In this document: piece after piece, positions 14,356 through 19,799 of the stretch
Layout: every line of letters starts with the position of its first letter
Position numbering within the stretch: position 1 is the stretch's first letter
From: Candidatus Pantoea bituminis
GTDB lineage: Bacteria; Pseudomonadota; Gammaproteobacteria; Enterobacterales; Enterobacteriaceae
Reading direction: 5' to 3'
Assembly (NCBI RefSeq): GCF_018842675.1
Contig: NZ_JAGTWO010000004.1
Location: 1,488,001 to 1,552,000 of the forward strand
DNA length: 64,000 nt
Made by a program: the position numbers and the translations under genes
Notes under the pieces: model-generated
What the model saw: the letters and a program-made list of their open reading frames with translations, nothing else
Databases searched by the model: none
What the model was told of the DNA's origin: nothing

Positions 14356-15138
14356 CTAAGTAAGAAAATAGTCCAGACCTTCGCACCAGCCTTCGGGGCC
14401 ATAGTGCGCGGTGTGATAGATATGTTTGAGATCTTGTCGGGTCAGGCGCACTGGCGTTTTACTGTAGCCTTTGATCACCACCGCGTAGTCGACGGCATCC
14501 AGCATGGGTGCATCGTTTGGGCCATCACCCAACCCAATAGTGACTCGAGGTTCACCTGACAGCTGGCTAAGTAACCAGCGTAGCGCTTCACCTTTCCCGC
14601 TGCCCGCCGGCATCACGTGCCAAAAGCGACCGCCCTGCGTTAATGTCAGATTGTGTTGCGTGAGTTCGCTGTGAAAGGAAGCAAAAGCTTCTTCGCTGTC
14701 ACGCCAGACCAGCACCTCTGACGCGTCGCGCTGGCGCGATAGTGCGGCGTCAGCCTCGCTGAGTCCTGTCATCGCCGAGACTTCCCGATCGGTAAAATTG
14801 TGAAATCCGGTGAAGCGATAACGACTTTGTAGCAGCGATAAATGGTGGCACAGCGTTTCATAGTCTGCGCTGTCAGCGGGCAAGCGAATCCGTTCTGAAG
14901 GATCAAGTTGGATCAGCGCACCGTTTTCAGCAATGAACGGTGCGCCCGTAATACCGAGTTTCTTTTGCAACGGCAGAATTTCCGCCGCGGTTTTACTGGA
15001 GCAGATCACCAAAGGAATTTGGTGTTGTTGCAACTGCTCAAGCCATTCTTCAGCGGGATCCCAGCTATAGCTGTGATGGTCGAGCAGGGAACCGTCGAGA
15101 TCGGTCACAATCATCAATGGTTGTTGAAGCGTAGGCAT
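14356..15138 (-). CDS. yedP: Mannosyl/glucosyl-3-phosphoglycerate phosphatase (HAD family)
   Basis: A 260-residue HAD-superfamily phosphatase of the MPGP type. Motif I is VTDLDGSLLD (nucleophile Asp12), motif II/III residues lie in VICSSKTAAE, and motif IV is IGLGDGPNDAPMLD (about residues 217-230). It is the E. coli YedP orthologue. Beside a gpgS-type synthase it most likely removes phosphate from glucosyl-3-phosphoglycerate to give the osmolyte glucosylglycerate. It is transcribed ahead of gpgS with a 42-base gap, so probably as one operon. Confidence 0.88.
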   Translation of the reverse strand: MPTLQQPLMIVTDLDGSLLDHHSYSWDPAEEWLEQLQQHQIPLVICSSKTAAEILPLQKKLGITGAPFIAENGALIQLDPSERIRLPADSADYETLCHHLSLLQSRYRFTGFHNFTDREVSAMTGLSEADAALSRQRDASEVLVWRDSEEAFASFHSELTQHNLTLTQGGRFWHVMPAGSGKGEALRWLLSQLSGEPRVTIGLGDGPNDAPMLDAVDYAVVIKGYSKTPVRLTRQDLKHIYHTAHYGPEGWCEGLDYFLT

Positions 15139-15519
15139 CGTAAGGCTCCTTTCATCACATTCAACGCCCCGTCACTTTTTACGCTGCAGGTGCGTTATCT
15201 ACATTACTCGACACGTCTGTGCGTCAGCGAAATGCAGGTCAAACCGATTTCGCCTACCGTGTCATTCGTTTGCCGCCTCGCTGCAACGCAAATTATTCAG
15301 GGTATAAAGCAACGATTTTTCAATATTATAGTTGAATCTTAGTTGCTCTTTTGCCGAACACTCATCTTAGGAATATCCAGGAATAATCCTAAAACGTAAC
15401 GGCGTTTACGGGTATGTTGCACGTTTCTTGCGCGCTCTAGCGCTTGGTACACAAGGTGTTTTCGGTAACAGTGACATCAAAATGGCGGTTTGTGTGGCAG
15501 GATTGTGCAGGGTTAAGAC
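15139..15519. other. Intergenic region upstream of yedP and dsrA
   Basis: About 380 bases between the yedP start and the dsrA promoter. It must hold the yedP-gpgS promoter on the minus strand. No open frame with a credible start or product was found. Confidence 0.55.
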
Positions 15520-15547
15520 TTGTCTTAAGTCACGAGAGGCGTAGTCT
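15513..15547 (+). promoter_or_regulatory. Likely dsrA promoter with overlapping inverted repeat
   Basis: TTGTCT at 15520-15525 and TAGTCT at 15542-15547, 16 bases apart, would place a transcription start near 15553. The inverted repeat TTAAGAC..GTCTTAA (15513-15528) covers the -35 box and could be an operator. The assignment is by inspection only. Confidence 0.45.
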
Positions 15548-15552
15548 GCAGA

Positions 15553-15618
15553 GGTGTTAAGAATTCCCTGGTGTAACGAATTGAATTTTTTACCCGGCCA
15601 TCCCGCCGGGTATTTTTT
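15553..15618 (+). ncRNA. dsrA: DsrA small regulatory RNA, short form
   Basis: The stretch CCCTGGTGTAACGAATT (about 15566-15582) matches the E. coli DsrA segment that pairs with the rpoS leader, and it is followed by a U-rich stretch and a terminator stem TACCCGGC / GCCGGGTA with six T (15591-15618). DsrA is an Hfq-dependent RNA that activates rpoS and represses hns. At roughly 65 bases this copy is shorter than the 87 of E. coli and lacks an evident middle stem-loop, the part linked to hns pairing. Position between yedP and yodD fits the E. coli neighbourhood. The 5' end is estimated from the promoter. Confidence 0.8.
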
Positions 15619-15628
15619 GGAAACGATT

Positions 15629-15865
15629 TCAACGATTCATTTCACTGCTGGTGCAGTCGTGAATATCGAGTTCAAATGCTTCAGCGATTTCGGTGTAAGC
15701 CTCAAAATGCCTGCTATCCAGCTTTATTCCACGATGGGATGGATCAAAATCCATATAATCGCGAACATCACCCGAAGTTTTCACCTGGATTGCTTCTAAT
15801 AGCGCATCCACGTCCACATTCAAAGCCCGCTGTGCGTCATCGCTAGACTCTTTTGCCGTTGCCAT
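15629..15865 (-). CDS. yodD: Stress-induced small protein YodD
   Basis: A 78-residue protein, similar over its length to E. coli YodD: the N-terminal ATAKESSDDAQR, the central VDVDALLEAIQ and the C-terminal AEAFELDIHDCTSSEMNR. In E. coli it is induced by peroxide, cadmium and acid, with unknown mechanism. It starts at ATG 15865 with AGGAGGCAG before it. It is transcribed convergently with dsrA, whose terminator lies just past its stop. Confidence 0.88.
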   Translation of the reverse strand: MATAKESSDDAQRALNVDVDALLEAIQVKTSGDVRDYMDFDPSHRGIKLDSRHFEAYTEIAEAFELDIHDCTSSEMNR

Positions 15866-16339: not shown

Positions 16340-16402
16340 ACGCTACATGGAAGCCATTGTTCGTTTAAACTGTGACTCAGGAAATAATCAGGAGAAATGA
16401 GA

Positions 16403-16597
16403 ATGAAGGTGAATGACCGTGTCACGGTAAAAACGGATGGCGGCCCGCGCAGGGTTGGAACCATTTTGGCCGTGGAGCCGTTTAACGAAGGCACCATGTT
16501 CCTGGTGGCATTAGAAGATTATCCGCTGGGGATATGGTTTTTTAATGAAACTGAACAGGCTGACGGAATCTTCGTTGAACCTTATGAATCGGCCTGA
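16403..16597 (+). CDS. dsrB: DsrB protein
   Basis: A 64-residue protein starting [17 protein letters not shown] and containing [20 protein letters not shown], nearly identical to E. coli DsrB, a sigma-S-dependent small protein of unknown function. ATG 16403 is chosen over the in-frame ATG six bases earlier because the GGAG at 16391-16394 is correctly spaced only for the former. It lies between dsrA and rcsA as in E. coli. Confidence 0.92.
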
Positions 16598-18532: not shown

Positions 18533-19168
18533 TTATCTCACATTGACATAAATACCCGAGGTGACATTATCGGTCAATCGCACCACATGATAAATTACTT
18601 GTTTGTTGTGGGTTTTGATCTTGCGCTTAATATTACCTTTGTGTGATGAAACTGTTTTAGCTTTAATTTGCATCTTGTCGGAAATTTGAATGGTGTCATG
18701 GCCTGACATCCACATTTTCAACATATTCGACTCAGTCTGGCTCAGCGTTAATGGATGAATATCCAACCCAGAGGAAATACGCGGAGATTGATTGAGTTTC
18801 TTCTGCAAATAAGTACTCAGTAAGGAATCCAGTGTGGATGTCTTTATCGATTTTGACGTAATAATCAGGTTCTTACGAACGTAGAGGTATTCCTCAAAAT
18901 GGATATTACTGATGGCCATAAATATAAAAAACAGAGTTTCAGGGTGCTGCATAATAATACTGCGAATACGTTCGCTGGAATCAGGCTCATGAATGAAGCA
19001 ATCTTCATTAATAAAAACGACGCCAGGTTGTAATTGTTCACAACGTTGCTGTAATTGTTCAATGTCAGAGGCTGAAGTAATATTTTTCCTCTTAACACCT
19101 TTAGAGGACATATAATCTGATAATCCCAAGCGTGTGTAGTTGCAGGAATCCATAATAATCGTTGGCAT
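18533..19168 (-). CDS. rcsA: Transcriptional regulator RcsA
   Basis: A 211-residue LuxR/FixJ-type regulator that joins RcsB to activate capsule or exopolysaccharide genes (colanic acid, amylovoran, stewartan). The start is set at ATG 19168 ([15 protein letters not shown] follows) with GAGGG ahead, rather than the in-frame GTG six codons earlier. The C-terminal helix-turn-helix ([17 protein letters not shown] through [20 protein letters not shown]) is almost the same as in E. coli, while the N-terminal half is more diverged. In E. coli RcsA is limiting, degraded by Lon and translated under DsrA control; a dsrA gene lies 3.6 kb away. Confidence 0.95.
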
Positions 19169-19799
19169 GTTAGCGACCCTCACCAATTTGTTATCCGTTT
19201 AAATCAACGATGAATTACGCGTTGCGGTACGAGAGAGATTTCTAAGACACTTTTTTATTCTGCTCATGCAGTGTGGCAACAGGCAAACGCCTGTAAAAGT
19301 CTTCTTCCCTGACCCGTTCTGCAAAATATTTTTTTACGTGCTGCTGTGACGTCACCCATCTCTCCAGCAATAGTGGGAATTGCTGGGGAGTACCGAAGTA
19401 CGGGTAAAACCTGTTTTGGGAGCGTTGTCACTATCGCCGAAAATCCGGAGTTATCTGATAGGACAAATCTTAAAAACATTTACTTCACGAAAGTGTGACG
19501 TATCAGCGCGTGTTGACAATGCCGGAAAAAACATTTCCTGACAAGAAAAATTATCGAAAGATTTTTTTGTGCAATTTCAACGTATTGCCGGATTTATCAA
19601 CAATTCCACAGAGTTATGCTTTCTGTGAACCGCCAAACTAAAATACGCGAAGCAGGGTTTAATAAGAATTATTTTCAGACTGACGGCACATTTATCAGAA
19701 TTTCCTTAGTTGATTTCTGAGAAAATTGGTTCAGAAAATGCACTGATGGTATCAAATTACTTAAGTATCGCAGAGGGGCAGTAGTTAGATACTTAATGT
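19169..19799. other. Intergenic region between rcsA and fliR, 631 bases
   Basis: AT-rich, no open frame with credible signals. It should hold the rcsA promoter region. TCAGAATTTCCTTA at 19695-19708 matches the RcsAB-box pattern (TAAGAATATTCCTA) at 10 of 14 positions, though it is over 500 bases from the rcsA start, so this is weak. Confidence 0.45.

Follow-up and report, generated by a model that had tools for sequence, protein, structure and literature searches.

A short DsrA without the middle stem-loop in Pantoea and related genera

In E. coli DsrA, the region acting on rpoS (nucleotides 1–27) and the region acting on hns (nucleotides 28–60) were mapped separately, according to the excerpted text of that study (PMC4231740). 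The preferred Hfq site of E. coli DsrA is given in the excerpt of PMC8468756 as linker 1, between SL1 and SL2, and the excerpt of PMC4509938 describes a U-rich stretch plus a terminator hairpin and poly-U as the module by which sRNAs contact Hfq. A point that weighs against the reading proposed below is that nine known sRNAs, but not DsrA, are named in the available part of an sRNA-seq study of P. ananatis LMG 2665 (PMC6749038); for E. amylovora, the accessible text of PMC6538786 states that there is no DsrA homologue. Among the literature matches listed, the excerpts gave no description of a DsrA without the middle stem-loop or of a Pantoea DsrA, and the closest context for the RNA described here was found in the excerpts of PMC4231740, PMC4070566, and PMC6749038.

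The stretch of Candidatus Pantoea bituminis DNA that we analyzed in its whole length of 64,000 nucleotides (the window) contains a predicted transcript of about 66 nt at 15553–15618 on the forward strand, whose start is placed by homology and which, judged by its sequence, is a DsrA orthologue. The Rfam DsrA model (RF00014) matched this RNA from end to end with 20.3 bits (E = 0.24 in 601 bases), and this match, together with the nearby dsrB, upholds the identification as DsrA made in the first-pass annotation. The score does not reach the Rfam cut-off of 60 bits, and a search of the entire 64 kb at the gathering threshold reported tRNA only and no DsrA. The short RNA is a real, under-recognized DsrA variant. 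Its position near dsrB, the two-arm rpoS core, the U-rich linker, and the intrinsic terminator are all shared with E. coli DsrA; in contrast to the latter, it is only 66 nt long, has neither a middle stem-loop nor an hns-complementary segment, shows an apparently degenerate first stem-loop, and stays below the Rfam cut-off.

The dsrB gene (PF10781) is found at 16397–16597 on the forward strand, less than 1 kb downstream of the short dsrA, and dsrB likewise lies beside the long-form dsrA of genome G139. On the reverse strand, the RNA gene is flanked upstream by a HAD phosphatase gene (14356–15138, PF08282), which we take to be yedP-like, and downstream by a gene for a DUF2525 protein (15629–15865, PF10733), presumably yodD-like. 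A LuxR-type regulator gene (18533–19186, reverse strand), for which the only domain match was PF00196 (GerE), is assumed to be rcsA on the basis of its position and sequence, and a Pmp3 gene also occurs among the neighbors of short dsrA. The segment 16675–18381, between dsrB and the rcsA-like gene, presumably encodes a protein resembling a methyl-accepting chemotaxis receptor; an apparently similar coding sequence was seen by eye near dsrB at loci L300 and L303.

The core CCTGGTGTAACGAATT is located at 15567–15582, and the terminator stem TACCCGGC..GCCGGGTA at 15591–15612 is followed by a T run at 15613–15618. This intrinsic terminator on the forward strand (15591–15618, an 8-bp stem and six U) was recovered by RNAalifold as well as by a terminator scan, for which shuffled sequences lead to an expectation of 0.7. 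Only 8 nt, GAATTTTT (15583–15590, forward strand), separate the core from the stem, and this unpaired, U-rich linker, the presumed Hfq contact, stands where E. coli has the middle stem-loop. Both structural claims of the first-pass annotation, namely that the rpoS core and the terminator stem are retained and that a U-rich spacer has replaced the middle stem-loop, are thus confirmed. When counted from the end of GUAACGAA, the spacer comprises 10 nt in the window and 8–15 nt, without predicted pairs, in 16 Pantoea. In the genus that we term g120, which probably is Erwinia, it comprises 5–26 nt in 22 of 23 cases, some of which are clipped by the automatic terminator call. The corresponding lengths are 21–32 nt in 8 of 10 enterics and 24–47 nt in five outgroup genomes. 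This count omits G452, G068, and G019, which had no callable terminator, and G065, which gave a length of 0. Small and weak hairpins were seen at the linker position in several RNAs of g120 and Mixta.

For the structural alignment, duplicates were removed and the loci L228 and L237, which have no terminator and were taken as chance matches, were dropped. The consensus structure obtained with RNAalifold from 44 sequences consisted of the terminator only, with two-sided changes at four of its eight stem pairs. The first stem-loop appears degenerate in Pantoea, and RNAalifold gave no consensus helix for it; a wobble-rich version of this stem-loop had 86.4% paired cells and not a single two-sided change in the helix. 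For the 5' half, three alternative helices were scored across 44 of the 52 distinct short sequences. The helix AAUUC/GAAUU had the most paired cells (91.7%), but just one of its pairs showed a two-sided change, and RNAalifold picked none of the three. The apparent degeneracy of the first stem-loop, like the clade-wide spread of the short form, had been missed in the first-pass annotation.

Two arms of the RNA match the rpoS leader of the same genome, as had been anticipated for the core: arm B (UGUAACGAAUU, 15572–15582, forward strand) has an exact, contiguous complement of 11 nt, and arm A (UUCCC, 15564–15568, forward strand) has the complement GGGAA. The rpoS leader motif CGTTACAAGGGGAAATC was present in all 60 genomes. 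On the side of the RNA, 56 distinct 5' segments of short forms were compared. Each of the eight columns of GUAACGAA was kept in 54–56 of them, and arm A, taken as five or more consecutive nucleotides of GGAUUUCCCC, was found in 50; in these 50 segments, the bases between the arms took 12 forms of 2–8 nt. The full GGAUUUCCCC, which is an exact 10-nt complement, occurred in four g120 genomes. At the sequence level, both rpoS-pairing arms are conserved, the intervening bases are variable, and the rpoS site is unchanged. The invariance of that site is not specific to DsrA, as it is also kept in G448, in which no DsrA was detected, and in G456, G462, and G478 the rpoS leader had changed without compensation in DsrA, with the best duplex lying elsewhere in two of these.

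The duplex of the window RNA with its own rpoS leader was calculated at −26.9 kcal/mol. When the 64 kb was cut into 6378 overlapping windows of 70 nt, 15 of these did at least as well, and so did 8 of 200 shuffled sequences in this genome; over 16 Pantoea, the number of such shuffles ranged from 0 to 81 of 200. As background windows and shuffles can do as well, duplex energy alone does not single out rpoS in the window genome. In the proposed mechanism, an RNA of about 66 nt would be made from 15553, and its arms B and A would bind the rpoS leader, whose inhibitory stem would be opened as in E. coli, so that short DsrA is predicted to activate rpoS. In a g120 subclade (L265, L268, L269, and L270 of G474, G472, G454, and G468), the arrangement GGAUUUCCCC-NN-GUAACGAAUUUU forms a nearly perfect complement of the rpoS leader, and the computed rpoS energy of these genomes was lower than that of the E. 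coli-like G139. At L118 (G146, P. ananatis LMG 2665), the rpoS match reads through one TAG codon.

We regard it as likely that this RNA is a DsrA orthologue cut down to the rpoS-activating module and the terminator, with the hns route and the middle hairpin lost. A tree of 60 nlpD–rpoS regions from 60 genomes, rooted on five outgroup genomes, contained one clade of 45 (support 99), made up of 44 genomes with a short form and G448, in which dsrA was not detected. Its sister group consisted of 10 enterics with long or divergent forms (support 100), and the five outgroup genomes had a different middle hairpin, which was folded in four of the five and recognized by eye in G112. As the enteric sister clade is long and the outgroup has another middle hairpin, a single loss is the simplest reading. 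The middle hairpin would then have disappeared a single time, on the branch leading to the Pantoea–Erwinia–Mixta clade, and small, mostly AU-rich hairpins may have been left or regained in some members. The converse history, in which the short form is ancestral and a middle hairpin arose separately in the enterics and in the outgroup, would fit the apparent lack of sequence relationship between the enteric and outgroup hairpins and the observed restriction of the hns segment to the enterics. However, it demands two gains against one loss on the rooted tree, and weak hairpins persist at the same place in several g120 and Mixta RNAs, which makes this history unlikely.

With regard to hns, the long forms carry AAGTGCTTCTTGC, complementary to the hns start, with at most two mismatches in 27 of 30 loci. 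A scan of 49 RNAs, either short or from the outgroup, gave no AAGTGCTTC at up to one mismatch, and the absence of an hns-complementary segment claimed in the first-pass annotation holds for the window, where the unpaired 8-nt linker takes its place. The target itself is still recognizable, as the hns start of the window genome, ATGAGCGAAGCACTTAAAATTC, has a 13-nt match to an E. coli-type long-form DsrA. The E. coli hns site amounts to 13–14 nt in four of seven Pantoea and to 8 nt in G189, G177, and G194. The best contiguous match of the window RNA to hns comprises 9 nt and lies at a different site. We used contiguous complement for hns, as duplex energy is no test even for long-form DsrA, whose value with hns (−25.3 kcal/mol) was equaled by 872 of 6378 background windows. 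By the E. coli route, hns would thus be left uncontrolled by the short RNA, and a loss of hns control is suggested by these comparisons.

It is also conceivable that hns is still controlled through a new pairing between the RNA 5' end, UGUUAAGAAUU, and hns codons 6–9 (from +18), in place of the lost middle arm. This pairing comprises 9–10 Watson-Crick pairs (11–12 with G-U) in G000, G178, G191, and G164, and 7 Watson-Crick pairs (11 with G-U) in G189, G177, G190, G192, and G197, whereas 9 Watson-Crick pairs, or 11 with G-U, were not reached at any of the window's 141 ORF starts, and the 5' end is conserved at 1.00 in 30 Pantoea. However, the pairing is present in only 9 of 15 Pantoea, being absent in G194, G146, G168, G201, G195, and G175, and it was likewise missing from G068, G119, and G139, the three genomes tested outside Pantoea. 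Matches of at least 9 also occurred in 8 of 2554 windows of 100 nt outside the sRNA, and the site was found after looking. Moreover, hns keeps CUUAAUAAU (codons 8–10) whatever the 5' end of DsrA, without co-variation; for this comparison, 8 further hns genes were obtained by synteny from 12 genomes (none was found in G176, G173, G157, and G206). Continued hns control through this site thus appears quite improbable. In its more elaborate form, according to which DsrA was rebuilt in the main Pantoea lineage such that the hns arm was dropped and the conserved 5' end came to pair with hns codons 6–9, we consider it very improbable; if true, one short RNA would address rpoS and hns through adjoining segments.

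Under the reading that the hns route was lost together with the middle hairpin, the locus is a natural counterpart of the rpoS/hns split that had earlier been mapped by laboratory mutation. As in the mutation-defined modules of E. coli DsrA, within the excerpted text of PMC4231740, the rpoS and hns parts are separable; the difference is that the hns part is here naturally missing throughout a clade. DsrA is a model two-target, two-module sRNA, and a clade with one module kept lets evolution test this modularity. The loss of a module would uncouple the RpoS response from the relief of H-NS silencing. The evolutionary meaning of the locus is in this respect larger than the first-pass annotation held, and its meaning for Hfq is smaller. 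Hfq binding had been tied there to the lost stem-loop, which is probably wrong, since the reported preferred site is linker 1, and this is still U-rich here. Both a U-rich linker and a poly-U tail are present in the short DsrA, and Hfq is predicted to hold the RNA by these two elements.

A search with a 125-base query at E values up to 1 gave matches in 58 of 60 Pantoea genomes, and reading of the matches confirmed the short DsrA in 55 of 60 (30 + 23 + 2). The five unconfirmed cases are G160, G170, G183, G198, and G187, and all of these except G170 are genomes of 1.4–2.9 Mb. In G187 (L345; 2.9 Mb), dsrA is gone by eye, and a terminator is left directly behind yedP-like sequence. For g120, a search model was built from 44 of the 52 distinct short RNAs, and its matches were then read. 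In this way, short DsrA was found in 27 of 37 genomes, four of which have divergent copies (G447, G473, G280, and G458). Among the other ten, G459 has kept a terminator remnant with the core gone, G467 and G469 contain RprA-like loci only, and seven gave nothing convincing. Short DsrA was also detected in Mixta (L220 and L222) and in four further genera with one genome each (G068, G086, G020, and G064). A DSRB match was absent in 6 of 15 g120 genomes searched (G448, G461, G464, G475, G476, and G467), and DsrA was found in none of these six. G448 (3.8 Mb), in which neither dsrA nor a DSRB match was detected, may be E. amylovora, and the published statement that this species has no DsrA may be right for it. 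The standard Rfam model misses the short form, and yet short DsrA occurs in those 27 of the 37 genomes of what is probably the genus of E. amylovora. For P. ananatis, neither fnrS nor ryhB was found at Rfam gathering cut-offs in the surroundings of the dsrA of G146 (about 80 kb to one side and 60 kb to the other), and no sRNA of the P. ananatis study was consequently matched to short DsrA.

Losses of this kind, with 10 of 37 g120 genomes lost, remnant, or undetected, the terminator alone in G187, and four divergent g120 copies, could in principle indicate a decaying dsrA without function, as could the score far below the Rfam cut-off. Decay is highly improbable, however, in view of the conservation pattern. 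In 30 aligned Pantoea loci, the mean column identity was 1.00 at 15553–15565, 0.98 at 15566–15582, 0.95 at 15539–15548 around the −10 hexamer, and 0.84 at 15519–15528, and the identity over the −10 region, RNA 5' end, core, and terminator (0.95–1.00) stands against 0.69 in the upstream flank (0.77 in the downstream flank). In addition, the terminator stem shows two-sided changes, and both rpoS arms have been retained at genus depth.

Model R1 also detects RprA-like loci in some genomes, but it is hardly credible that the short RNA is RprA, or some new sRNA, having no more than the rpoS-complementary core in common with DsrA. The sole RprA (RF00034) match of the window's genome G000 is a separate gene at another locus (C4:2125075-2125163, 71.2 bits), and the short RNA has dsrB close by and is aligned over its full length by the DsrA model. 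The RprA covariance model gave no match at the short dsrA locus. RprA resembles short DsrA in having a related core in an rpoS-activating sRNA, and differs from it in locus and 3' half.

In the promoter region, a strict sigma-70 consensus scan found no promoter at short dsrA, and the start site at 15553 was thus placed by comparison with homologous dsrA promoters. The −10 hexamer TAGTCT (TAATCT in many relatives) at 15542–15547 on the forward strand was assigned from column conservation, and the −35 hexamer TTGTCT at 15520–15525 on the same strand from a by-eye alignment with CTTGTC of long-form dsrA promoters. The −35 hexamer is situated inside the 16-bp palindrome TTAAGACTTGTCTTAA (TTAAGAC-TT-GTCTTAA, 15513–15528), just as had been described. 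At least six of the seven palindrome arm pairs were present in 10 of 53 Pantoea loci, 4 of 23 g120 loci (one of them with a different palindrome, and 8 of the 23 without a scorable site), 1 of 7 other loci (3 unscored), and 0 of 30 long-form loci. The palindrome is thus intact or nearly intact in a minority of relatives only, and most Pantoea loci are without it. It may be an ancestral dsrA operator in the clade, and we considered that it might be an RcsAB operator. The excerpt of PMC5829831 gives no consensus letters for the RcsAB operator. The perfect 16-bp palindrome is intact at L037 and, in another genus, at L179, and it is nearly so in three g120 genomes.
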